Counted from the first letter of the stretch, positions 10,368-33,057 are shown. The stretch: 43,288 nucleotides of DNA from Bacteroidota bacterium (GCA_029571985.1 JAKQVC010000249.1:1-43288), one strand, 5' to 3'. Numbers and translations are program-made. Notes: generated from the sequence alone by a model not told the origin.

Positions 10368-13214
10368 ATGACCACATTTTATACCCGCACTCTAAACCGA
10401 TTATTTGTAGCTGTAGCGCTGTTTTGCGCCGGAATTACTGCATCTCAGGCTCAGATTACCTGGACAACCGGGTATACCGCTGATTCGCTGGCCGGATACC
10501 TGGCCGGTCCGGGCGTTGAAATTGATAATGCTGTAATAGATTGTTACAACCTGGCTATCGGCATGTTTGATTGCGTGGATTGTAACGTGGGTATCGACAG
10601 TGGTGTAATTCTTACTACAGGCCGTGTATCGAATATTGCGGGTCCAAACAATAGCGGTAGTACGGGCACAAACAATGGCTGGCCGGGCGATCCGGATTTA
10701 AATGCCTATCCGGGTGTGGGTACAACAAATGATGCTTGTGCGTTAGAGTTTGATGTGTTTTCACCGGGCGATAGTTTGAAATTTGAGTATGTTTTCGGGT
10801 CTGATGAGTATCCGGAATATGTATTTTCGATAAATGATGCCTTCATTTTTATGTTGAGCGGTCCTGGTTATCCGGTGGCTACCAATATCGCCCTGATTCC
10901 CGGAACGGCGCTGCCGGTAACGATTGATAATGTGAATGCAACCACTAATCCGGCTTATTATATTGCTAATGGAACCGGTGGCACAGGTATTTATGCCACT
11001 GATCCATATTATATTGAATATGATGGATTTACGGTTGTAATGACAGCAGAGGCCGTTGTAACTCCGTGCGAATGGTACCACCTGAAATTGGTCATTGGTG
11101 ATGAGTCGGATTTTGTTTGGGATTCTGGTGTGTTTCTGAAGGCAGGCAGTTTAACAACGAATTTATTGGCTGACTTTACCTATGGCGGTGTGCCTTTTGG
11201 CGGTACGGCAGAATTTTGTTCTACTGATCCGGATCCTGCTCCTGTATATGCAGCCGGCGCACTTGCCGGTGAGTTTACGGCTGACCCTGCAGGCTTAGTT
11301 TATGACCCATTAACGGGCGTTATTGATGTGAGTGCGTCTGATCCCGGTATTTATACATTTACAAATACCTTAATGGAAGCTACATGTTATGGTGATACAA
11401 CAGAATTTACCATGACGGTTGCCATTTATGATCCGCCTGCGGCTAACTTCAGTTATTTTGGCAGCCCTTATTGCGATAATGAATCAGATCCTTCACCGGT
11501 GGCCGGTTTGGGAGCATTGTTAGGCACGTTTACTGCTGCTCCTGCCGGATTGGTTATTAATCCACTTACCGGTACAATTGACCTTGATGCCTCTGCTCCT
11601 GGAACTTACGTAATTACAAATACGGTACTAAGTGGTTCTGTTTGTCCGGATGGTGTCGCTACTACATCGATTACAATTTATCCTACTTATTTTTCTACCG
11701 AAACGCATGATATGTGTTTGGGAGATAGCTATGTGTTGCCGGATGGTACTACAGTATTTTCTTCAGGTACGTATACCAGCGACCTCAACACAATATATGG
11801 TTGTGATAGTGTGATAGAAACCACTGTTACAACGCACCCTGTTTATAATTACACATTAAATCCGGCTATTTGCGCAGGAGGATCTTATACATTACCTGAT
11901 GGCACCAGCGTTACCGCTGCGGGTACATATATCAATAACTTTACCTCTGTTTGGGGATGCGATTCAAATTATACGATTAACCTAACCGTATCACCGGTTA
12001 CCACTACAAATGTGAATGCACATATTTGTGATGACGAATCTTATACCCTGCCTGATGGAGCTGTTGTTACTGCACCGGGTGTTTATCCGGTAACACTTAC
12101 TACCGCTGCCGGATGTGATAGTGTGATTAATACAAACTTGTTAGTGCATCCAACATATGCGATTTTCGAAAATCCGATTATTTGTGATGATGCCACTTAT
12201 ACATTGCCTGACGGTACTGTTGTAAATACAACCGGTACTTATATAACGAATTTACTCACCATTAGAGGTTGTGATAGTATTATTACCACAAACCTGACGG
12301 TTAATCCAACGTATGCGATTACACAGAATCCGGAAATATGCGTGGGTGAAGTATATACTTTGGATGATGGCACAACCACTACAACCGGTGGTACCTGGGT
12401 GTTCCCATATACAACGATTGCAGGTTGTGATAGCATCATTACAACCAACCTTACGGTAAATCCGCTGCCGGTTATCAATTGGGTGATTGATGATATTTTC
12501 TGTTTAGAACAAGTGAGTATTGAAATGGAAGCAACGCCTGCTGGTGGTACTTATTCAGGTCCCGGTATGAGTGGTGATAATTTTGTTACAGCACTTGCAG
12601 GTGTTGGCGGTCCCTATACACTTACCTACGAATACACGGACGCAAATGGCTGTTACAGCAGTTATACCGTTACAACATCTGTTGATGACAATTTCGTAAC
12701 CGCTTGGGGTGATACTACATTGTATTATGGAGAGGCTACTACCTTATATAGCGAAACAGGTGGCGATTACACCTGGACGCCCGATAATGGTGTTGAATGC
12801 GTAACCTGTCCGATTACACTGGTGGTGGCGCCATATTCAATTGATTACATCATGACCTCTGTTGATGAGAATGGATGTATTGCTTCTGATTTTGTAACAG
12901 TTACCGTATTGCCGGTTCCACCAAATGATGTATTCATTCCAAACACCTTTACACCTAACGGTGATAATATCAATGATTTATTTTATGTGTATGGATTTAA
13001 CCTAACCTCTATTATTTCCTTGCAAATTTTCGACCGTTGGGGTGAAATTGTTTACTCAGGCGAAAACCTGGATGCAGGTGATATGAGTCAGGGTTGGGAT
13101 GGTACGGTTAAAGGTCAATTAGCGAATAACGGTGTATATGCGTTTATGATTGAAGTGGAATTCGACAACGGCCAACGCATGAATAAAGCCGGCAATATTA
13201 CGTTAATCCGTTAA
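10368..13214 (+). CDS. T9SS type B (gliding motility C-terminal) surface protein
   Basis: A 948-residue secreted protein. After a signal peptide (about 1-28, ends SQAQ) comes a choice-of-anchor L type domain (about 30-260, with GVILTTGR, FVFGSDEYPEY-like FEYVFGSDEYPEY and WDSGVFLKAGSL). Two repeats related to each other follow (about 265-430, each with FTADPAGL/FTAAPAGL and a GTIDLDASAPGTY-like end), then five 52-residue repeats (about 439-698), a PKD/Ig-like part and the type B T9SS signal starting VFIPNTFTPNGDNIND and ending AGNITLIR. It is an adhesin-like or matrix protein. It ends 25 nt from the convergent radical SAM cluster, and shares its plan with the gene at 20209-22389. Confidence 0.92.
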   Translation: MTTFYTRTLNRLFVAVALFCAGITASQAQITWTTGYTADSLAGYLAGPGVEIDNAVIDCYNLAIGMFDCVDCNVGIDSGVILTTGRVSNIAGPNNSGSTGTNNGWPGDPDLNAYPGVGTTNDACALEFDVFSPGDSLKFEYVFGSDEYPEYVFSINDAFIFMLSGPGYPVATNIALIPGTALPVTIDNVNATTNPAYYIANGTGGTGIYATDPYYIEYDGFTVVMTAEAVVTPCEWYHLKLVIGDESDFVWDSGVFLKAGSLTTNLLADFTYGGVPFGGTAEFCSTDPDPAPVYAAGALAGEFTADPAGLVYDPLTGVIDVSASDPGIYTFTNTLMEATCYGDTTEFTMTVAIYDPPAANFSYFGSPYCDNESDPSPVAGLGALLGTFTAAPAGLVINPLTGTIDLDASAPGTYVITNTVLSGSVCPDGVATTSITIYPTYFSTETHDMCLGDSYVLPDGTTVFSSGTYTSDLNTIYGCDSVIETTVTTHPVYNYTLNPAICAGGSYTLPDGTSVTAAGTYINNFTSVWGCDSNYTINLTVSPVTTTNVNAHICDDESYTLPDGAVVTAPGVYPVTLTTAAGCDSVINTNLLVHPTYAIFENPIICDDATYTLPDGTVVNTTGTYITNLLTIRGCDSIITTNLTVNPTYAITQNPEICVGEVYTLDDGTTTTTGGTWVFPYTTIAGCDSIITTNLTVNPLPVINWVIDDIFCLEQVSIEMEATPAGGTYSGPGMSGDNFVTALAGVGGPYTLTYEYTDANGCYSSYTVTTSVDDNFVTAWGDTTLYYGEATTLYSETGGDYTWTPDNGVECVTCPITLVVAPYSIDYIMTSVDENGCIASDFVTVTVLPVPPNDVFIPNTFTPNGDNINDLFYVYGFNLTSIISLQIFDRWGEIVYSGENLDAGDMSQGWDGTVKGQLANNGVYAFMIEVEFDNGQRMNKAGNITLIR
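11682..12461 (+). repeat. Five in-frame 52-codon (156-bp) tandem repeats
   Basis: Five consecutive units, each exactly 156 bp, encode P-x9-IC-x4-YTLPDGT-x5-GTY-x6-T-x2-GCDS-x-I-x-T-x-L-x-V. Each has two Cys (in IC and GCD) that probably pair. Nucleotide identity is moderate, so the array is old rather than freshly expanded. Confidence 0.9.
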
Positions 13215-13239: not shown

Positions 13240-14682
13240 TTATTTTGATAGTTGCATACGCAGTCTGTACGCACTTGCACTGATGGCATGATAGGGAGTG
13301 GCCATAATTCTGCGCAATGGCATAGGCCAGTAATTGCCCGATAAACCCAATCGTTGTTTCATGCCCATCCACCCCTGCAACAAACGAAAATATTGATGCG
13401 CGTAGCGATGCAGGTTTTTATAAAATCCCGGTGTATAGGTGCCGTGATACATCAGCAATAACTCATCGCTGTCGTTCCAGTTTTGTTTATCCGAAAGTTC
13501 TGCCCGTACGCGTTCATAAAACACAGTGCCCGGCAAAGGGTACGAAATGGATATGCCAATATCAAAAGGCATACATTCGGCAAGCATCTGCATGGTTTTT
13601 TGAATATCGGCCATTTCTTCACCCGGATATCCAAATTGTAAGAAGAAACAAGGTTTAATGCCATGCTTTTTCATCAGCGCGGTACTGTTCATGATCTGAT
13701 CGATAGTAGTGCCCTTGTCCATGGCATCTAATATTTTTTGAGAACCGCTTTCGGCACCGATCCAAATTTCATCACAACCTGAAGCGGCGAGAGAAGCAAT
13801 ATTTTCTTCATTGAGCAGCACATCGGCCCGGCATTGTATTTTGTAATGAATGCGGAAGCTTTGTTGCTGCATCAGTATTGAAAATTGTTGTATCCATCCG
13901 GGTTTTAATCCGAATATATCATCGCAAAACCAGACATGTTCAGCGCCATACGATTGCACGAGCAACTTGATTTCCTCCACCACCTGTTCAGGTGAGCGCG
14001 AATTATATCGATTTCCATAAATGGGTTTGGCACACCAATTACATTTAAACGGGCATCCACGAGTGGTGGTAATATTAATGGAAAACCTGCCACGGCTTTT
14101 TTTCCAGGCATTTCTATAGGGAGTGAGGTCAATTAAATCCCATGCCGGTAATGGCAGACGATCTAAATCATGTAAAACAGGTCGCTTGGTTGTATAATGT
14201 AAATTACCGTCCTGCAAAAAGGCAATGCCTAAAATGGATGCTGGCGGGATGTTGCCTGTGATAAGTTCAAGTAAAGTAATTTCCGCTTCGCCTATAATAA
14301 TACAATCGGCACCGGCTTGTAAATAATCAAGACAGTGGTCTGTTGCATCGCTACCTGAAACGAGCACACGACAATTATATTGCTTGGCTGTACGTATCAT
14401 GTCGAAACAGGCGTTTCGCATGTTGACCAGGCACATTTTAGTTAAGTAATTAAATCCATCGTCATATATCACAACTGTTTCGCCTGCATGTTGTGCAATA
14501 GCGCGACAAACATTTGAGGTATCTGTATCAAAAACAGTATCGTGTACGCTCACGGATACACCGGCTTCGCGCAGTACGGCAGCGGCATAAAGAGTGGCAA
14601 GTGGGGGATAGGGTTCCATCTTGCGCTCCTGTTTAGGGTCAAGATGAAGGAAGTAATTATTCGTGAGTAAAACACCTGCCAT
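13240..14682 (-). CDS. B12-binding-type radical SAM protein (third of cluster)
   Basis: A 480-residue protein: N-terminal cobalamin-binding-like Rossmann domain (about 1-175, with YPPLATLYAAAVL and IIIGEAEITLLEL) then a radical SAM barrel with the 4Fe-4S motif Cys210-x3-Cys214-x2-Cys217 (RGCPFKCNWC), followed by a ~120-residue C-terminal helical part. Such class B enzymes (relatives of BchE and HpnP) do methyl transfers or ring chemistry on unreactive carbons. Substrate is unknown. It is closely related to the protein at 17925-19298 (shared RSPEqVVEE, IWIGAESGSQkIlDAMD). The start overlaps the stop of the nucleotidyltransferase gene by 1 nt. It is the last gene of the cluster. Confidence 0.9.
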   Translation of the reverse strand: MAGVLLTNNYFLHLDPKQERKMEPYPPLATLYAAAVLREAGVSVSVHDTVFDTDTSNVCRAIAQHAGETVVIYDDGFNYLTKMCLVNMRNACFDMIRTAKQYNCRVLVSGSDATDHCLDYLQAGADCIIIGEAEITLLELITGNIPPASILGIAFLQDGNLHYTTKRPVLHDLDRLPLPAWDLIDLTPYRNAWKKSRGRFSINITTTRGCPFKCNWCAKPIYGNRYNSRSPEQVVEEIKLLVQSYGAEHVWFCDDIFGLKPGWIQQFSILMQQQSFRIHYKIQCRADVLLNEENIASLAASGCDEIWIGAESGSQKILDAMDKGTTIDQIMNSTALMKKHGIKPCFFLQFGYPGEEMADIQKTMQMLAECMPFDIGISISYPLPGTVFYERVRAELSDKQNWNDSDELLLMYHGTYTPGFYKNLHRYAHQYFRLLQGWMGMKQRLGLSGNYWPMPLRRIMATPYHAISASAYRLRMQLSK

Positions 14683-15635
14683 TACAGCAAAGATATCTGA
14701 TGTTGCGTTTCAAATTGTTTGCACTGTTGGTGCATGGCATCCATTACTTTAAATTGAAAGCCATGCGGATGGTGTTTAGATACATGTTTATGAGAACGGA
14801 AGCTGACAGCGTATTGCATCGCGGGAATGTGACGATACTTTTTTTTCAGGAAAAATGCCGTCAGTTTGAATGCAGCCATATCTGCGAGGTTGCCCGATTT
14901 GCCACTTAATATCCATTCTGCAAATCGTTTGACGACCTTCGGTTTATCAGTAATCGCAGGTTCAGTATGGTTCAGGTGATTGGGATAAAAGCGATTTACC
15001 CAAGTATTCGATTGCATAAAGGCATTATAATACGTAAAACCGGTTTGTGGTAATAAGGTGATGATTTCAGTTGCCGCAAAAATATTTTCATCGGGAATAT
15101 AGAGCGAATCGGAATCGATGTAGTAATTAATACAAAAGTATTTACGCCGGTTTAGCAGAAATATTTTTTTATACATCGTCAGCAGCAATCGGCACACCCA
15201 CAATCGACCCGGTTTGGTGATAACCATAAAATCGACATCGCTATTTTCATCGAAATACTGCTTGGATAGAGAACCGGAAATAAGCACGCTTCTAACAAAT
15301 GGAAATCGCTGAATAAACTGCGCACGTTTTTGAGCAATGGGCATAACCGTGTCGGCCATCGTGTTGCCTGCTTTCCTTCTCACGGCAATGCCGCTATCGT
15401 TTTGCGTGCTGTAGACATCGCCAAATTGAAAAATGAACAGGTGTTCTACCAGCCAGTTTACATCTGTTTGCAACTCAGATAAAGTGTGTATGCGGGTATT
15501 GCAAAATCGAAGAATTTCCTGAAGGGTGAGCGGATATTTAAAAATATCAAAATAGAGCAGGGTGCGTATAATTGCCGACTGCCTTGCGGATAAACTATCC
15601 GGTTTACTGTAAATAATATGCAATGGGCTCTTCAC
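14682..15635 (-). CDS. Nucleotidyltransferase-domain protein of radical SAM cluster
   Basis: A 317-residue protein. The N-terminal ~100 residues look like a winged-helix or helical domain (LLYFDIFKYPLTLQEILRF). Residues 118-140 hold a nucleotidyltransferase signature G121-S122 and D133-V-D135 (ISGSLSKQYFDENSDVDFMV), as in polymerase-beta-type enzymes that add nucleotides to proteins, sugars or antibiotics. A C-terminal helical region (~200-317) is Lys/His-rich. The catalytic residues appear intact. It overlaps the upstream methyltransferase by 4 nt and the downstream radical SAM gene by 1 nt, so translation is coupled. Its partner or substrate is unknown; it may activate a carboxylate or phosphate of the product made by the cluster. 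Confidence 0.8.
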   Translation of the reverse strand: MKSPLHIIYSKPDSLSARQSAIIRTLLYFDIFKYPLTLQEILRFCNTRIHTLSELQTDVNWLVEHLFIFQFGDVYSTQNDSGIAVRRKAGNTMADTVMPIAQKRAQFIQRFPFVRSVLISGSLSKQYFDENSDVDFMVITKPGRLWVCRLLLTMYKKIFLLNRRKYFCINYYIDSDSLYIPDENIFAATEIITLLPQTGFTYYNAFMQSNTWVNRFYPNHLNHTEPAITDKPKVVKRFAEWILSGKSGNLADMAAFKLTAFFLKKKYRHIPAMQYAVSFRSHKHVSKHHPHGFQFKVMDAMHQQCKQFETQHQISLL

Positions 15636-16294
15636 GCTTTTGTGAGTTTATATATATAATTCCACTCCCACAAGATACGTTTTTTTTCAATAACTTCCAT
15701 GTGCAATCCTGCCGCGTGTGCGATGTCTTCGATATGCACAGTGGAAGTATCTTCCGACAAAATCATCCAGGCTTCTGTATTTTCTGGTAGAAACGGGTGT
15801 ATGCCGGCAAAAAGGCGTTGAAAATATTGAAAATCAAGTCCTGCATACCAGGCGCGCTCCAGATCGTTTCTGGCATCTTGCGGGTAAAAGGGGGGATTAA
15901 TCAGTATATAATCAAAATGCATACCCTCCAGTGATCCAAATAAATCGCTATATACAATTTGCAGTTTTACCTGATTGTGTTCGGCATTTTGCTGCAATGC
16001 TTGTAGTGCTTGTTGATTGATGTCGCTCGCTGTCACCACTGCCCCTTTTTTTGCGGTGGCAATGCTGATGAGTCCGCTTCCTGCGCCCAACTCAAGTATA
16101 TGCTTTCCCGTTAATGGATGCCGAAGTGTAAAATCTAACAAAAATTGTGTGCTATGAAAATAGCCCGGATGAAAAACGCCCGGCGGAATAAATAAGCGTA
16201 TGTCGCCATGTGTATACATGGCAGATTGCTGCATGCGTTTACGCACTCGTGGCTGAAGCCAAATTCGAGAATAGAGTTTGTATAACTTGCGCAT
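15632..16294 (-). CDS. Class I methyltransferase with NPPF motif
   Basis: A 220-residue SAM-dependent methyltransferase. Motif I is ILELGAGSGLISIATA (about 67-82), the acidic end of strand beta2 is SDIN, and the catalytic-type motif INPPFYP lies near residue 133. NPPF/Y is typical of enzymes that methylate N atoms (HemK/PrmC, RlmG and adenine methyltransferases), so a glutamine, base or amide nitrogen target is plausible. Lys/Arg-rich N-terminus (about 1-20). It overlaps both neighbours (1 nt with the radical SAM gene, 4 nt with the nucleotidyltransferase), in the middle of the cluster. Confidence 0.88.
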   Translation of the reverse strand: MRKLYKLYSRIWLQPRVRKRMQQSAMYTHGDIRLFIPPGVFHPGYFHSTQFLLDFTLRHPLTGKHILELGAGSGLISIATAKKGAVVTASDINQQALQALQQNAEHNQVKLQIVYSDLFGSLEGMHFDYILINPPFYPQDARNDLERAWYAGLDFQYFQRLFAGIHPFLPENTEAWMILSEDTSTVHIEDIAHAAGLHMEVIEKKRILWEWNYIYKLTKA

Positions 16295-17802
16295 CAGAAT
16301 CCTTCAATCTCCGGCTGACGATATTTCAACCAATATTTTTGTAAAAATTTAATTTCCAAAGGCCAATGATAGGCTTTTGCATGGTATCGCCAGGCAGAAG
16401 CGGCGCGGATACAACTGCGTTTAAAAGCACTGAGTTTTACATCACTCACTGTAGGATAATATCCATTAAGCACCGTTTCAAAATTGCGAATCCGATCTAC
16501 CATATCTGGTGTTAGCCAGGGGGTTAACGGATTTTTGCGCAAATCAAATTCGGCCCATTCGGGTGAAATCCAATCATCAAGTGTTTTCGGAAAAGCAAAT
16601 CCTTGCTGTTGAACGGAGGTGAATAATTCGCTGCCTTCAGTGGGCACAGGTGAATACACGTAAATAATAATTTCTGTATCCGGATTAATGCGTTTGATTT
16701 CGCGGATAAAGGCTATATCGCGAATAATACGTTGCTTGGTTTCTGCCTGAGTTGCAGCCGGAGTGCCCAGAACAAAACTGTATTCAGGAATAATATCAAA
16801 TGTGCGTAAACGTGCTGCAAATTGTTTAATCTGCTCTGCTGTTTGTGTTCCGCCTTTATCCATGAATTGCAATACGGCATCATCACCGGTTTCTGCACCG
16901 AAAAATATCATCCGGCAACCTGAATCACGCATGGCTGCAAGTGTGCTGTCGGCATATTTGTTTATGGTGTCAATACGGCCTTCGCCCCACCAATGCATAT
17001 TTTCATGCCGCATGAGTCGACTAAACTCAAGAGTGCGTGCTTCCGATACAAAGAAATTATTGTCGTGAAATTCAATAGCATCGCCACCATACGTATTTTT
17101 TAATAACCGTATTTGCTGCACGATTTTTTCGGCAGATTGACCTTTCCATCGCGCTTCAAAAATGGGCACGATGCCACAAAAGGCACATGAAAACGGACAG
17201 CCTATGCTGCTGTGATAAGCAATTGTTTTTTTGCCTAACACGGTTTTCCCTAAGTAGCCGGAAATGGGATAAAAACGATTTAATGTTGCGTATGGTAAAT
17301 CAGGTAAAGTGTCCTGATCATATAAATGATCTTTTGTATTTTTTGTGATCACGCCATTTTCCCGCCAAATTAAATTCGGAATGGTATGCAACGAAGTTTT
17401 GTTTTGTATGGCATCCAACAATGCAGGAAATGCGCGATCGCCGGGTCCGTAAATGGTGTAATCAACAATTCCACTTTCCATAACAACCGTACTTTGGTTG
17501 CTGGCAAAATAGCCTCCCCAAATCGTTACTACATGCGGATATTGGTTGTGCACCAACCGGGTAATGGGTATGGCCTGTTTTAATTGTGGCCCGGGCATGA
17601 CGGTGGAAGCGAAGCAATTATAGATGCCACTGGCAAGATAGCTTTCGATAACGGCTTGCGGATCATCTTCCCGATTTCCATCTACAATCACATAGGGAAA
17701 CCTGCCTTCAATCGTAGCGGCTATGGCTAATATTGAATTAGGAATACGCGGTTTGTGTGATGCAGCGCGTGGATTAAATAATATGATGCCTTGAATTAAC
17801 AA
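16294..17802 (-). CDS. B12-binding-type radical SAM protein (second of cluster)
   Basis: A 502-residue protein with a cobalamin-binding-like N-terminal domain (about 1-150, IWGGYFASNQ and YGPGDRAFPALL) and a radical SAM domain with Cys202-x3-Cys206-x2-Cys209 (IGCPFSCAFC). It carries FFGAETGDDAVLQFMDKGG and a long C-terminal extension (about 390-502) that is rich in aromatic and basic residues. It is less like the two other radical SAM proteins of the cluster than these are to each other. No ATG is available near the N-terminus; the TTG at 17802 (M-L-I-Q-G) is the likely start. A 7/8 -7 box TAACTTTA lies 24 nt before it. Confidence 0.88.
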   Translation of the reverse strand: MLIQGIILFNPRAASHKPRIPNSILAIAATIEGRFPYVIVDGNREDDPQAVIESYLASGIYNCFASTVMPGPQLKQAIPITRLVHNQYPHVVTIWGGYFASNQSTVVMESGIVDYTIYGPGDRAFPALLDAIQNKTSLHTIPNLIWRENGVITKNTKDHLYDQDTLPDLPYATLNRFYPISGYLGKTVLGKKTIAYHSSIGCPFSCAFCGIVPIFEARWKGQSAEKIVQQIRLLKNTYGGDAIEFHDNNFFVSEARTLEFSRLMRHENMHWWGEGRIDTINKYADSTLAAMRDSGCRMIFFGAETGDDAVLQFMDKGGTQTAEQIKQFAARLRTFDIIPEYSFVLGTPAATQAETKQRIIRDIAFIREIKRINPDTEIIIYVYSPVPTEGSELFTSVQQQGFAFPKTLDDWISPEWAEFDLRKNPLTPWLTPDMVDRIRNFETVLNGYYPTVSDVKLSAFKRSCIRAASAWRYHAKAYHWPLEIKFLQKYWLKYRQPEIEGF

Positions 17803-17924
17803 TACACTATAATATCTGTAAAGTTAATGCAAGGATGCGCTATATGTATGTTAAAAAGTAGTTCTGCAACAAGGGCAATTGCCAATCGTCAGGTACGGTT
17901 GCACGTATTTATGTGCGCGCGACT

Positions 17925-19298
17925 TTATCTGGCATGCACAAGTCGTACCCATTGCATGCCCAATAAGGCCACTTTAGCTTTTAACAGGTGCATCCATTTA
18001 TGTGTTTTCGTGTAGGCTACGGCATGCACTACATAACGCACCGCATGCGGATAATACGTTTCCGGATAGGTGCGAGCAAATTGTATTTCACGGTCGCTGC
18101 CTGTTGCCCAATCAGGGGACTGCGTTATAGAGGGTTGAACTGTAGTGTATAATGCGGTTCCTTTAATGGGATAGGCAGTTGTAATGGTGAAATAATCTGG
18201 TTGTGCTGCAATCAGATGTTGTACGGTTGCATGAATATCTGATTCTGCTTCACCCGGATAGCCGAGCATGATAAATGTGCCGGCCTCAATTCCCTGTGCA
18301 CGAGTTAAGCGAATCATTTCCTGCACCTGTGTTACATCTACGCGGCGATCCATCGCATCAATAATGCGTTGTGATCCGCTTTCTGCACCTATCCAAACAC
18401 GGAAACATCCGGCTCGCTTTAACAAATGTATAACTTCCTCCGACATGCGATCGGCACGCGTGATGCATTCAAAGGGCATGTTGATGGATTGCTTTTCTAT
18501 TGCATCAGCAAAAGAGCTTAACCATTTATGACTAATTGTAAAAACATCATCAACAAACCAGATGGTATCCGGCGCATACGTGTTTTGAATATGCACTAAT
18601 TCTTCTACAACTTTTTCCGGTGATCGGCGACGATAGCTTTGTCCGTACACGGCCCGACTGCACCAGGTGCAGGTGTAAGGACATCCACGCATCGTGCTGA
18701 CGGATATCGCATTTTTACCGTGATGTTTTTTCCATACATCTAAATAGTGCTGTAAATCAACCGCCTCTCGATTGGGCATAGGCAAATCATCGAGGTTGCG
18801 CATTTTTTCCCGTTCTGCGGATATGCAAACCTTGCCGGATACATCTAATTGTGCAATGCCTTTAATTTGGTAGGTAGGCAGATTGTTTTGCAAACACTGA
18901 ATGAGCTCGAGAAAACTTTCTTCACCTTCACCTAATACCAAATAATCGGCGCCAAATTGTAAAAATTGTTCGGCATGATTGCGCACTTCAGGTCCACCGA
19001 GTATAATGCGTGTTTCTGATAAATTTGCATCGCTGCGAATGCGTTGCATAATGGAAACAATATGCTTGCGTGTCATCAGGTTGACATACAAGGCAATGAC
19101 ATCTGGTTTAATGGTGTTTATATAATCCCATTGTGCATCCGGTTGCATAAAGGTGGTGTCCAGTACATCATGTGCAACATCGTGTTTGTTTAACCATGCC
19201 GATATATACAAGAGACCTAAGGGTACGTAAGGGCGCATAATCTGCTGCTCGCGCTCGTCAAGTGCCAGAAAATATCCATGTGTTAAAAGTATGCGCAT
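17925..19298 (-). CDS. B12-binding-type radical SAM protein (first of cluster)
   Basis: A 457-residue protein: cobalamin-binding-like N-terminal domain (about 1-175; MRPYVPLGLLYISAWL, VLGEGEESFLEL), radical SAM domain with Cys206-x3-Cys210-x2-Cys213 (RGCPYTCTWC), then a C-terminal domain. Close relative of the protein at 13240-14682. I chose ATG 19298 (MRILLTHGYF) because a complete promoter, TTG-N20-TACCTTTG, lies just upstream and would be inside the gene if the alternative start at 19352 were used. The gene is followed by a 122-nt gap before the next radical SAM gene, the only sizeable gap in the cluster. Confidence 0.9.
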   Translation of the reverse strand: MRILLTHGYFLALDEREQQIMRPYVPLGLLYISAWLNKHDVAHDVLDTTFMQPDAQWDYINTIKPDVIALYVNLMTRKHIVSIMQRIRSDANLSETRIILGGPEVRNHAEQFLQFGADYLVLGEGEESFLELIQCLQNNLPTYQIKGIAQLDVSGKVCISAEREKMRNLDDLPMPNREAVDLQHYLDVWKKHHGKNAISVSTMRGCPYTCTWCSRAVYGQSYRRRSPEKVVEELVHIQNTYAPDTIWFVDDVFTISHKWLSSFADAIEKQSINMPFECITRADRMSEEVIHLLKRAGCFRVWIGAESGSQRIIDAMDRRVDVTQVQEMIRLTRAQGIEAGTFIMLGYPGEAESDIHATVQHLIAAQPDYFTITTAYPIKGTALYTTVQPSITQSPDWATGSDREIQFARTYPETYYPHAVRYVVHAVAYTKTHKWMHLLKAKVALLGMQWVRLVHAR

Positions 19299-19306
19299 GC
19301 CTGATT

Positions 19307-19337
19307 CAAAGGTATATCCAACAGCCGCAAAATACAA
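19307..19337 (-). promoter_or_regulatory. Promoter inside the radical SAM cluster
   Basis: On the minus strand, -33 TTG (19337-19335), a 20-nt spacer and a perfect -7 TACCTTTG (19314-19307) lie 8 nt before the ATG at 19298. The radical SAM genes can thus be expressed apart from the upstream methyltransferase, on a transcript with almost no leader. Confidence 0.75.
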
Positions 19338-19373
19338 CTGTATGTTCAGCAAGCCTGTTCAGCATTTCATGCA

Positions 19374-20156
19374 TTATGCCTGCTTTTGCATAATAAGCAC
19401 ATAATGATCTGATGCATGGGCACACCAACTCAAGTTTGAAAGCAGCTTATCCAATGCAACAAGACATCTGAAAATAAATGGATGTTTTACACAAAATGCA
19501 TTCAAATACGAAGGTGGAATACAAATACCAACCGGTTTTAATGCAATTTGTTGCCAATCTGGCGGACAAAGTGCCTTACATGAATTTGGTGCATAATAAT
19601 AGGTGTCAACTGTGTTGTGGTTGTCGAGTCTGATGTGTTGCATCGAATTTCTCCGGCGCATTGCACGCAGGTTTCCTTTTAACAGAAAATATAGCCGTTC
19701 CATCCAGCAAACGCGACCCATCAGCACCAACACCACCTTGCCACCGGGTACTAAACAGGTGTTCAACTGTGCGAGACTATTGCGCAATTGTTCCGGACTC
19801 AAACAATTCAAACCTCCGAAATTGCTCCAAATCAGGTCCATCTTTCCAATAGCTTCCGGAATTGGTTTTGTTACATCCCATATGCCTGTGCGAACATTTT
19901 CCTTACCGGCATTTCTGCGACGAGTTTGCTCCAGCATGCCGGTTGACATATCCGTCGCCAATACCTGATGGCCCTGATTTGCCAGCCATTCAGCATCAAT
20001 TCCTGTTCCGCAATTTATTTCTAATACGCGTCCGGACGGGGCTGGCAACAGCGGTTGTGCGCACGACCATACCATTTCGCGTTGCGCTTTTCCAACAAGC
20101 GTTTCGGCAAATGTGGCGTCGTACGCAGGTGCTGACAAATCGAACGCGGATGACAT
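19374..20156 (-). CDS. Class I SAM-dependent methyltransferase
   Basis: A 260-residue methyltransferase of the type 11/25 kind. Motif I is VLEINCGTGIDAEWLA (about 44-59), with the post-I acidic TDMSTGML, the beta4 region DLIWSNFGGLNCL and a lid-like segment near VPGGKVVLVLMGR. These enzymes methylate small molecules, quinones or lipids. The first ATG (20156, MSSAFDLSAPAYDATF) is preferred to a TTG at 20174 because family members begin with such a FD..A..YD pattern and a -7 box lies at 20183-20176. First gene of the minus-strand cluster; 75 nt separate it from the next gene start. Confidence 0.87.
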   Translation of the reverse strand: MSSAFDLSAPAYDATFAETLVGKAQREMVWSCAQPLLPAPSGRVLEINCGTGIDAEWLANQGHQVLATDMSTGMLEQTRRRNAGKENVRTGIWDVTKPIPEAIGKMDLIWSNFGGLNCLSPEQLRNSLAQLNTCLVPGGKVVLVLMGRVCWMERLYFLLKGNLRAMRRRNSMQHIRLDNHNTVDTYYYAPNSCKALCPPDWQQIALKPVGICIPPSYLNAFCVKHPFIFRCLVALDKLLSNLSWCAHASDHYVLIMQKQA

Positions 20157-20175: not shown

Positions 20176-20192
20176 CAAACCTACTACATTTG
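20176..20192. promoter_or_regulatory. Back-to-back divergent -7 elements
   Basis: CAAACCTA (minus-strand TAGGTTTG, 20183-20176) and TACATTTG (plus, 20185-20192) are both perfect TAnnTTTG matches, separated by one base. The minus box lies 19 nt from the methyltransferase ATG at 20156, the plus box 16 nt from the ATG at 20209. Two RNA polymerases could not bind at once. No -33 element with correct spacing was seen on either side. Confidence 0.6.
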
Positions 20193-20208
20193 TGTTAACC
20201 ATTACAGC

Positions 20209-22389
20209 ATGAAAACCTTATCGCTCCTCTCGATTCTGCTGTTAACTGCATGCGCATCTTTTGCTCAGATCATTTGCGATCCTGCAGGTAACGTGATGAT
20301 TTATTCGAATTATGAAGGAGGCACGCTGAATGTTGAGGTGGATGTTGATATACCCAATCTGAAAATTGGTATTTGTACTTACGAACCGGTAACCGTAAAT
20401 TTTACAGGAACGTATGTAGGTAATATAACGGAAGTGCTTTTTGCCGGATTTAATGAGCCCCTCGCCATCACAGGTGTGCCTGCAGGTATTGTAACAACTT
20501 ATGCCTGCGCCTCAGGCAATGTGGCTATCTCTCCTTATTTAAGTGAATATGAAATTTTAGGTGTGCCCATTGCTAATTGCATGGTGGGCGCAGAAGATTG
20601 CACAGATTATGCCTCCGGCGGTGGAAATTCATCACCACAAATTGTGCAATTCTTTTTAGCCGAGTTTGGACCCGGTAATATTTTTTATGCCCATTATACA
20701 GACTATGTTTTTTTCCCGCCCGGTGTGTTTCAAGTAAGTGATGGCGGTAATTGTTGTTTGGATACGCCATTAGGTGCTCCTAATCCGATTTACACAGGGG
20801 GTATTACCTATAATTTTTTACCGGATACTTTATTGTTGTGTGATGATGATATTACACTCGACATCTCTTTTTATGAAACTTTATGGGGCACTACAACCTG
20901 GAGCACCGGCGCTACCGGACCAACTATTACTGTAGATGCGCCCGGTGTATATAGTTTTACGATGTGGGATTATTGTCACTACGATCCGGATAATTTATTA
21001 ACGGATACTGTAGTGATTATTCCGTGCTATACTTTGATTGATACAACTATTTGCGCAGGCGAAACACTTACCTTACCTGACGGAACTGTTGTTGCAGATG
21101 CAGGTGAATATGTAGTTACGATTCCGGCTGTGGATGGTTCAGATAGTACTATTTCAGTTACCTTATCCCTGTGGCCAACTTATTTTACTACAGTTACGGG
21201 TGCCATTTGTGATGGTGAAGCGTATACATTACCTGATGGCACTTCTGTAACATTGCCCGGTATATATACCATTAATTTACCAACCGCTGCAGGTTGTGAT
21301 AGTACGATAGAGGTAACACTCAATGTATCTGCTTCATTTGCAACAACCGTGGATGCATCTATTTGCAGTGGTGATACTTATGCGTTGCCAGACGGAGGTG
21401 TGGCAACAGTTGCCGGTACTTATACCTCATTATTATTAACAGCCTCGGGATGTGATAGTATAATTACAACAAACCTGGCTGTGAATCCGGTGTATACATT
21501 TATTTTAGATACCACCATCTGTACAGGCGAAACAGTGACTTTACCCGATGGCACGATTGCATCAACTGCCGGCGTATATGAACTTGATTTTACCACAACC
21601 TTGGGTTGTGATAGTATTTTCTATTATTATGTCGATTTCTATCCTATCACAACAGTAACCACAACTATTCCGGATGTTTGGTGCATCGAAGATGGCGTTG
21701 TTTTACTGGAAGCTGACCCGGCGGGTGGACTCTTTAGCGGACCAGGTGTTTCCGGTAGTACGTTTGATCCGGTTGCAGCGGGTGTTGGTGATCATATTAT
21801 TACCTATACATTTGTAGATGCTTTTGGTTGTGCATCTGCGCAGTCGGAAACGATAACAGTTGATCAGAATTTTGCGGATGCCGGCCTGGATACAACTATT
21901 TTTGATTCAGGCGTCGCTGCATTATCTGGTGCTACGGGCGGCAATTACTTCTGGTCGCCACCTGATGGATTAACGTGTACTGATTGTGCAAATCCATTTA
22001 CAGGTGTTGATGCTACTACTACTTATTACCTCAGTTCAGTTTCCGCTAATGGATGTGTGGCGATAGATTCTGTTACCGTATTTGTTATTCCTTCTAATGA
22101 AGAAGTATTTATTCCAAATACCTTTACGCCTAATGGTGATGGCATAAATGATGTATTCGGTGTGTTGGCTCCCGGCGTTAGTCAATTATTATCTTTTACG
22201 GTATACGATCGCTGGGGTGAACGCATTTGGTATGCAACAGATACTGATCCGCAAAGCGCGGGGGCCATGTGGGACGGATATTTTAATGGCGAATCGGTTA
22301 ATCAAGGCGTGTATGCCTATGTTGTGCGTCTGCAATTTTATTCAGGCCGCGTTGAAACGTATAGTGGAAATATTACGCTGATACGATAG
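20209..22389 (+). CDS. T9SS type B (gliding motility C-terminal) surface protein
   Basis: A 726-residue secreted protein and a paralogue of the gene at 10368-13214. The signal peptide (about 1-20, LLLTACASFAQ) may be of normal or lipoprotein type (Cys in LTAC is followed by ASFAQ, so signal peptidase I cleavage after AQ is more likely). A Cys-rich N-terminal domain (about 21-265) is followed by four 51/52-residue repeats (about 272-478), an Ig-like part containing VWCIEDG and GGLFSGPGVSG, and the type B T9SS sorting signal beginning VFIPNTFTPNGDGINDVF and ending SGNITLIR. I chose ATG 20209 because its -7 promoter element (20185-20192) lies downstream of every earlier start. Divergent from the radical SAM cluster. 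Confidence 0.9.
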   Translation: MKTLSLLSILLLTACASFAQIICDPAGNVMIYSNYEGGTLNVEVDVDIPNLKIGICTYEPVTVNFTGTYVGNITEVLFAGFNEPLAITGVPAGIVTTYACASGNVAISPYLSEYEILGVPIANCMVGAEDCTDYASGGGNSSPQIVQFFLAEFGPGNIFYAHYTDYVFFPPGVFQVSDGGNCCLDTPLGAPNPIYTGGITYNFLPDTLLLCDDDITLDISFYETLWGTTTWSTGATGPTITVDAPGVYSFTMWDYCHYDPDNLLTDTVVIIPCYTLIDTTICAGETLTLPDGTVVADAGEYVVTIPAVDGSDSTISVTLSLWPTYFTTVTGAICDGEAYTLPDGTSVTLPGIYTINLPTAAGCDSTIEVTLNVSASFATTVDASICSGDTYALPDGGVATVAGTYTSLLLTASGCDSIITTNLAVNPVYTFILDTTICTGETVTLPDGTIASTAGVYELDFTTTLGCDSIFYYYVDFYPITTVTTTIPDVWCIEDGVVLLEADPAGGLFSGPGVSGSTFDPVAAGVGDHIITYTFVDAFGCASAQSETITVDQNFADAGLDTTIFDSGVAALSGATGGNYFWSPPDGLTCTDCANPFTGVDATTTYYLSSVSANGCVAIDSVTVFVIPSNEEVFIPNTFTPNGDGINDVFGVLAPGVSQLLSFTVYDRWGERIWYATDTDPQSAGAMWDGYFNGESVNQGVYAYVVRLQFYSGRVETYSGNITLIR
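21022..21642 (+). repeat. Four in-frame 51/52-codon tandem repeats
   Basis: Four consecutive units of 51, 52, 52 and 52 codons carry the same consensus as 11682-12461 (IC-x-GE-x3-LPDGT...GCDS). The first unit has GSDS instead of GCDS, so it cannot form the usual Cys pair. Confidence 0.88.
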
Positions 22390-31926: not shown

Positions 31927-33057
31927 ATGAAAATCGGGATAGTATGTTACCCAACGTATGGGGGAAGTGGCGTTATCGCTACAGAATTGGGCAAGGCGCT
32001 GGCGGATAAAGGGTACACCGTTCACTTTATTACCTATAAACAACCTTTTCGTCTCGATTCATTTCATGAAAATATTTTTTTTCACGAAGTCAATTTTACC
32101 AACTATCCACTGTTTGAATATCCTCCCTATGAAATTGCCCTGAGTAGCAAAATTGTAGATGTGGCTATCAATGAAAAATTGGATTTGTTGCACGTACACT
32201 ATGCTATTCCACATGCGTCTGCCGCTTATTTAGCTAAGCAGATATTAAAGGAAAGAAATTATCACCTGCCTTTTATCACCACTTTACACGGCACAGATAT
32301 TACCCTGGTTGGAAAAGATGAAACATTTGTTCCGGTAGTTACTTTCAGTATTAATCAAAGCGATGGGATTACTTCTGTTTCTGATAGCCTGAAGCAGGAT
32401 ACCTACGCGAATTTTGATATTAAAAAAGATATCGCCGTTATTCCAAACTTCATAGACTTCACCCGTTTTAAAAAATTAAATAAAGAGCATTTCAGAAAAG
32501 TGATTGCCAAAAATGGCGAACGCATCGTTGTGCATACTTCAAATTTCAGAAAGGTGAAAAGGGTAGAGGATGTTGTTAAAGTATTCTGTCAGATTAAAGC
32601 AGCAGTGCCATCTAAATTATTGCTGGTGGGTGATGGGCCTGAGCGACAAAATGTAGAAAAACTCGCGCGCCAGGTATGTAATGAAGACGATGTGTATTTT
32701 TTAGGCAAACAAGAAGCCGTTGAAGAATTATTAGCTATTGCTGATTTATTTATACTGCCATCAGAAACAGAAAGTTTTGGTCTTGCGGCGCTGGAAGCCA
32801 TGGCTTGTGAAGTGCCGGTAATCTCTACCAACACCGGCGGTATTCCTGAAATTAATATTCATGGCGTAACCGGATTTATGAGTGCGGTGGGCGATGTGGA
32901 TGATATGGCAAAAAACGCTATCCATATTTTATCCGACGATCAAACATTGGCGCAGTTCAGAGCTAACGCCATCACACAGGCTAAGGTTTTTTCTTTAGAA
33001 AATATTTTACCGCAATACGAATCCTACTATCGCAAAATAGTAGAAAGCAGCAAATAA
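31927..33057 (+). CDS. bshA: N-acetyl-alpha-D-glucosaminyl L-malate synthase
   Basis: A 376-residue GT-B fold glycosyltransferase (GT4) that joins UDP-GlcNAc and L-malate in the first step of bacillithiol synthesis. The N-terminal KIGIVCYPTYGGSGVIATEL is a BshA hallmark; further marks are HVHYAIPHA, TLHGTDITLVG and the nucleotide-sugar region LPSETESFGLAALEAMA with E-x7-E. The length matches BshA of Bacillus. Malate-binding residues could not be checked. It lies 90 nt after the GH3 gene on the same strand; the ATG at 31927 directly precedes the conserved start. No bshB or bshC is in the window. Confidence 0.94.
   Translation: MKIGIVCYPTYGGSGVIATELGKALADKGYTVHFITYKQPFRLDSFHENIFFHEVNFTNYPLFEYPPYEIALSSKIVDVAINEKLDLLHVHYAIPHASAAYLAKQILKERNYHLPFITTLHGTDITLVGKDETFVPVVTFSINQSDGITSVSDSLKQDTYANFDIKKDIAVIPNFIDFTRFKKLNKEHFRKVIAKNGERIVVHTSNFRKVKRVEDVVKVFCQIKAAVPSKLLLVGDGPERQNVEKLARQVCNEDDVYFLGKQEAVEELLAIADLFILPSETESFGLAALEAMACEVPVISTNTGGIPEINIHGVTGFMSAVGDVDDMAKNAIHILSDDQTLAQFRANAITQAKVFSLENILPQYESYYRKIVESSK

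Follow-up and report, generated by a model that had tools for sequence, protein, structure and literature searches.

What do three radical S-adenosylmethionine (SAM) proteins, two methyltransferases and a nucleotidyltransferase make when their genes stand side by side? The six genes in question lie on the minus strand, at 13240-20156, of a 43,288-nucleotide stretch of DNA from a Bacteroidota bacterium (GCA_029571985.1, JAKQVC010000249.1:1-43288), which as a whole is called the window below; the genome that holds it is G000. In transcription order we name them MT1, rS1, rS2, MT2, NTase and rS3, where MT stands for methyltransferase, rS for radical SAM protein and NTase for nucleotidyltransferase. 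The original prediction for this locus held that the six genes act together on a molecule and fit no class that could be named. Our results show that the cluster is one lineage's version of a module scattered across Bacteroidota, and we put the probability that this module tailors a sugar (a glycan, a glycolipid or a glycosylated small molecule) at roughly one half.

A module kept together across Bacteroidota

We searched 395 genomes sampled evenly across Bacteroidota, with match thresholds of our own choice. The NTase was matched in 27 genomes and rS3 in exactly the same 27. Both rS2 (17 genomes) and an amidohydrolase known from related loci (9 genomes; family f7, the numbers f4 to f33 designating neighbour-gene families from such loci) were found only within these 27. 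If genomes were independent the chance of this nesting would be 3e-23 for rS2 and 8e-12 for f7, figures that are only indicative because the genomes are related and independence is overstated. A separate scan for relatives of rS3 gave 80 loci, all from Bacteroidota by their titles (Chitinophagales, Mucilaginibacter, Niastella and others), and in most of them MT1, NTase and rS2 lie near rS3. Gene order is kept in sub-blocks: rS2-MT2-NTase-rS3 recurs as a contiguous block in six loci, and for 86 of 92 locus pairs among relatives the next gene downstream of rS3 is MT1. Of the 75 loci of at least 19 kb, only 7 have all six genes and 48 have four or five.

Co-occurrence and nesting therefore argue for a dedicated module and not for chance, in accordance with the predicted joint action of the genes, and the homologues are not scattered apart. 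The module consists of an NTase-rS3(-MT1) core with rS1, rS2 and MT2 as optional members, and the six genes of the window are a variable subset of a larger set. It is spread patchily over Bacteroidota yet tightly kept together where it is present. A search of plasmids gave no match to NTase and only rS2 relatives of ~25% identity.

Relatives show what else the module can hold. Two compact operons read NTase-rS3-MT1-f5-GT4-rS2-MT2 (locus L125) and NTase-rS3-MT1-rS2-f9-f7-f5-f4 (L132), and L133 is also operon-like; here f4 denotes a SPASM-type radical SAM protein, GT4 a glycosyltransferase, and f5 and f9 methyltransferases. A search of G000 for f4 gave only a weak generic radical SAM match. The amidohydrolase f7 is weakly similar to 5'-deoxyadenosine and aminofutalosine deaminases, and it might clear 5'-deoxyadenosine or S-adenosylhomocysteine (SAH), by-products that radical SAM enzymes and methyltransferases leave behind. 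A TadA-like deaminase whose N-terminal part includes a hydrophobic segment adjoins MT1 in three genomes that are only distantly related (L141, L146 and L149), and rS2 was not found in these. The extra module genes, like the glycosyltransferase context described below, are seen in relatives only and are invisible from the window.

Glycosyltransferase linkage in relatives

Using profiles of recurring glycosyltransferase families, we detected at least one glycosyltransferase in 22 of 29 module loci as against 1 of 20 control stretches taken elsewhere in module-carrying genomes, a contrast that is somewhat inflated because the profiles were built from families of module neighbours. The linkage extends to gene fusion: a 662-aa frame in L124 joins GT4 to NTase, and in L132 (9150-9950) MT1 is joined to a GT29 (sialyltransferase)-like domain, a borderline case. 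Within the module itself rS3 and MT1 are fused in a 727-aa frame of L145. In the sister genome G001 (L137) a GT4 gene lies inside the operon, between rS1 and rS2, where the window has a gap of 122 nt; a homologue of this gene was sought in G000 and gave no match. Several lineages also carry GT87 and GT9 glycosyltransferases with the module. In Mucilaginibacter the module sits inside a cluster of the exopolysaccharide type, together with glycosyltransferases, Wzx- and Wzy-like proteins and a sugar-phosphate transferase (roles assigned by Pfam where scanned and otherwise by reading the sequences). Unlike Bacteroidota exopolysaccharide clusters, the module can also take the form of a compact operon that lacks such machinery, of which the window, L125 and L132 are examples.

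Taken together, we give about even odds, a probability of roughly 0.5, to sugar tailoring as the role of the conserved Bacteroidota module of which the six genes are one version. We build here on the existence of the module, its co-occurrence and operon organisation, the folds of its proteins, and the glycosyltransferase linkage and fusions in relatives; the substrate, the order of the steps and the use of cobalamin are what we infer. The product had been predicted to be a lipid, a peptide, a cofactor or a surface protein. A modified molecule still stands, but the relatives favour a glycan or sugar over a peptide or an undefined lipid.

The enzymes and their proposed chemistry

The CxxxCxxC motif is intact in all three radical SAM proteins, as predicted (CPYTCTWC in rS1, CPFSCAFC in rS2 and CPFKCNWC in rS3), and each scores above the Pfam Radical_SAM cut-off. 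An N-terminal B12-type domain had also been claimed for all three. This holds for rS1 by Pfam B12-binding (cut-off 32.1 bits) and for rS3 by its model, whereas rS3 (26.1 bits) and rS2 (24.3 bits) fall below the Pfam cut-off, so that for rS2, with its sub-threshold score, the domain stays putative. rS1 and rS3 are indeed paralogues, although “close” was a generous word for 34% identity over 462 aa, and rS2 is remote from both. It is the slowest-evolving member of the module, with 45-69% identity across the phylum (alignment A3).

The predicted model of rS3 (predicted local distance difference test, pLDDT, 85.7) combines a B12-binding-type domain with a radical SAM barrel. The closest solved structure to the full-length protein is AprD4 (Z 26.0; 424 residues, 3.6 A, end to end), followed by OxsB (24.2) and MgmA (23.4), with TsrM (Z 21.2) and CysS (Z 20.6) as further full-length matches, and rS3 thus models as a class B enzyme of the OxsB/AprD4/MgmA type. 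Asn78, which is invariant across the rS3 and rS1 rows, falls in a profile alignment on Asn186 of OxsB, the residue below the cobalt (PMC13331322). A clear counterpart is absent from rS2, whose loop reads TVMP in all rows of alignment A3. Use of cobalamin is feasible because G000 encodes MetH and a cobalamin adenosyltransferase.

AprD4 is a radical SAM 1,2-diol dehydratase of apramycin biosynthesis that acts on the aminosugar pseudodisaccharide paromamine (PMC5461906). It is also the best sequence match in the PDB for rS1, rS2 and rS3, but identity is only ~20% and scores against NCBIfam AprD4 (81.4 bits for rS3, 84.3 for rS1 and 58.0 for rS2) lie far under the cut-off of 500. A further difference is that AprD4 is not known to need cobalamin, whereas the OxsB-type Asn is retained in rS3 and rS1. 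No reductase resembling AprD3, the NADPH-dependent partner of AprD4, was recognised among the conserved neighbours, although no AprD3 query was run. OxsB (oxetanocin A), TsrM, TokK and CysS share with the module a cobalamin-type Rossmann domain, a radical SAM barrel and the conserved Asn186 position. Identity to OxsB and other cobalamin-dependent class 1 enzymes is 13-17%, however, the gene context is another one, and the N-terminal domain of OxsB is missing from the module protein.

No NCBIfam family cut-off was reached by rS1, rS2 or rS3, in agreement with the predicted lack of a known class. The best scores were 143 bits for rS1 (PhpK, cut-off 600), 125 for rS3 (BchE, 481) and 100 for rS2 (ApyD, 750). 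BchE gave 125.1 bits for rS3, 139.7 for rS1 and 87.2 for rS2, and HpnJ (cut-off 577.6) gave 119.7, 119.1 and 89.3 bits in the same order. HpnJ, BchE and PhpK are among the best scores for the three proteins (86-143 bits), but these are far below the curated cut-offs (481-600 bits) and G000 is without a hopanoid cyclase.

The AlphaFold2 model of NTase (pLDDT 92.7) predicts an N-terminal winged helix (about residues 13-81) and then a pol-beta-type domain. The winged helix matches that of a winged-helix regulator (65 residues, 1.4 A, Z 7.5) and the catalytic domain is closest to the kanamycin nucleotidyltransferase ANT(4') (110 residues, 3.0 A, Z 6.7), both with modest Z values, under 8, that fall where common arrangements occur. 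With ANT(4')-type kanamycin/aminoglycoside nucleotidyltransferases (ANTs) NTase shares the catalytic fold and the GS...DxD motif, of which G121, S122, D133 and D135 are invariant among 28 sequences (alignment A1). It differs from them by its winged helix, by a sequence homology to solved ANTs that is undetectable (a sequence search of the PDB gave nothing significant) and by its tie to biosynthetic genes, and nothing that we found suggests drug resistance. NTase diverges fast, unlike the highly conserved rS2. In a divergent NTase group (L122, L123 and L124, from genomes G196, G284 and G496) SGGTANYG replaces SGSLSK, so that GG stands for GS; this NTase adjoins, or is fused to, a GT4 glycosyltransferase. 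MT2 carries the NPPF motif that had been predicted and scores near HemK2/MTQ2-type N-methyltransferases, below cut-off.

If the substrate is a sugar, rS3, with rS1 where present, would generate a 5'-deoxyadenosyl radical that takes a hydrogen from a sugar carbon. The outcome could be C-methylation via cobalamin or, on the model of AprD4 or OxsB, a deoxygenation or a rearrangement of the ring. A second radical step of the same type would fall to rS2, and MT1, with MT2 or its stand-ins, would methylate O or N positions. By analogy with ANTs, NTase may move a nucleoside monophosphate onto a hydroxyl of the sugar or of an intermediate, and the transferred nucleotide could activate or protect the molecule for a time only, or else stay in the final product. 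The sugar would be installed in relatives by the GT4 glycosyltransferase, a step that is not encoded in the G000 cluster.

All six frames were confirmed in the predicted order (Table 1). The last four genes overlap, likewise as predicted, by 1 nt (rS2/MT2), 4 nt (MT2/NTase) and 1 nt (NTase/rS3), and 75 nt separate MT1 from the rS1 ATG. The mechanical open reading frame (ORF) of rS1 starts at a TTG at 19352, but the protein is probably shorter because homologues start at the conserved ATG at 19298 (alignment A2). The candidate promoter is a pattern match only, and a clear -33 element is absent. Scans for sigma-70 promoters and terminators did no better than on shuffled sequences, and Rfam gave no match in the window. 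The cluster is flanked by two paralogous CHU_C-tailed proteins, and relatives of the first adjoin rS3 in G001 and G002.

Table 1. Positions of the cluster genes and of other features, in the window unless a locus is named.
Feature	Position	Strand	Description
MT1	19374..20156	-	UbiE-like class I SAM methyltransferase, 260 aa, ATG start; first gene of the cluster; Pfam Methyltransf_25 58.6 bits
rS1	17925..19298	-	class B-type radical SAM protein, 457 aa from ATG; rS3 paralogue; Pfam Radical_SAM 76.0 bits, B12-binding 47.7 bits
rS2	16294..17802	-	class B-type radical SAM protein, 502 aa, TTG start; Pfam Radical_SAM 38.0 bits
MT2	15632..16294	-	NPPF (MTS/HemK-like) methyltransferase, 220 aa; Pfam MTS 68.4 bits
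NTase	14682..15635	-	winged helix and pol-beta/KNT-type nucleotidyltransferase, 317 aa, GTG start; Pfam matches below cut-off
rS3	13240..14682	-	core class B-type radical SAM protein, 480 aa; Pfam Radical_SAM 87.2 bits
candidate promoter TAGGTTTG	20176..20183	-	fits TAnnTTTG, the -7 element of Bacteroidota; lies ~20 nt ahead of the MT1 ATG
CHU_C-tailed proteins	10368-13214 and ~20203-22389	+	type IX secretion; repeats around an LPDGT motif
GT4-type glycosyltransferase	31927-33057	+	100.9 bits
f7 amidohydrolase	L132:12180-13355, L133:11297-12427		found in relatives
TadA-like deaminase	L141:11123-11701, L146:7238-7789, L149:8118-8840		found in relatives

Weighing the substrate

Several points count against a sugar as the substrate. 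No substrate can be read from the sequence. Glycosyltransferases were not detected in 7 of the 29 module loci, the window cluster itself has none (the nearest found in the window lies ~12 kb away), and the GT29-like domain of L132 is just under the Pfam cut-off (22.2 vs 23) with no match to a solved structure. OxsB, which acts on nucleotides, is nearly as close to the rS3 fold as AprD4, and the partners of deaminase type seen in relatives could indicate a nucleoside instead. To these must be added the relatedness of the genomes behind the nesting figures, the origin of the glycosyltransferase profiles and the modest fold matches of NTase.

A modified nucleoside or nucleotide is the alternative that survives best, though we judge it unlikely. 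NTase and the radical SAM enzymes would then act on a nucleotide as OxsB does, a deaminase would finish the base, and glycosyltransferases would be present because the loci are islands of specialised metabolism. Among solved structures only AprD4 matches rS3 better than OxsB, which has the Asn below the cobalt in common with it, the weakly deaminase-like f7 is nested within the module genomes, a TadA-like deaminase stands beside MT1 in three distant lineages, and enzymes methylating planar nitrogens show the NPPF motif that MT2 carries. The window cluster, however, contains neither deaminase, a search of G000 for f7 gave no match, and f7 could instead remove 5'-deoxyadenosine or SAH. Such a product would also leave the glycosyltransferase fusions and the GT4 genes inside operons unexplained.

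Less probable again is the modification of a lipid, a glycolipid or a polyprenyl carrier, by HpnJ-like chemistry. The hopanoid enzyme HpnJ is thought to act on lipid-linked glucosamine, HpnJ and the lipid-associated TIGR04072 are among the best sub-threshold NCBIfam matches, and the GT87 and GT9 glycosyltransferases that travel with the module in several lineages would suit such a substrate. Yet the HpnJ scores (89-120 bits) are far under 577.6, lipid-making genes were not recognised among the shared neighbours, and most module carriers tested, like G000, have no squalene-hopene cyclase. For G000 the search used PF13243 and gave no match, with Bacillus subtilis as a positive control. Because this cyclase is missing from G000, hopanoid synthesis is unlikely, and a placement in the hopanoid pathway, named in the original prediction as a way in which it could fail, is unsupported.

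Modification of a protein or peptide, for example a surface protein secreted by the type IX system or a ribosomally synthesised and post-translationally modified peptide (RiPP), is improbable: two CHU_C secreted proteins flank the cluster, some sub-threshold matches such as ApyD are RiPP radical SAM enzymes and f4 of the relatives is of a class common in peptide modification, but the shared neighbours include no recognised peptidase or partner for peptide recognition, the ORFs in the cluster gaps (29-62 aa) include no plausible precursor, as the original prediction had said, and the CHU_C neighbour is accounted for by family-level conserved synteny. We accordingly rejected a RiPP system, the rS1-rS2 gap being occupied by the GT4 gene in the sister genome, as well as a functional tie to the flanking CHU_C proteins, given the conserved synteny with G002.

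Returning to sugar tailoring, the enzyme families are known, and what has not been characterised is the probable tailoring pathway formed by their combination, at whose core a radical SAM protein and a nucleotidyltransferase are an obligate pair. The combination was not described in the openly licensed papers that we searched, and we know of no characterised pathway in which class B radical SAM enzymes are combined with such a nucleotidyltransferase. Surprise is limited because orphan radical SAM clusters are numerous; strict co-occurrence and the glycosyltransferase fusions lift this module above the average one. We propose, tentatively and at somewhat less than even odds, that it represents a previously undescribed, phylum-wide sugar-tailoring pathway in which a winged-helix nucleotidyltransferase is obligately teamed with two or three radical SAM enzymes of class B, and nucleotidylation of a glycan or sugar intermediate is part of the radical carbon chemistry on it. 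Radical SAM enzymes with B12-type domains do some of the hardest steps in biosynthesis, and for most of their families the substrates are unknown. Here the obligate NTase-rS3 pair, the nested partners and the glycosyltransferase fusions restrict the likely substrates to the class of sugars, and the question of the substrate is made experimentally tractable by carriers that are in culture (Mucilaginibacter, Niastella and Chitinophaga).

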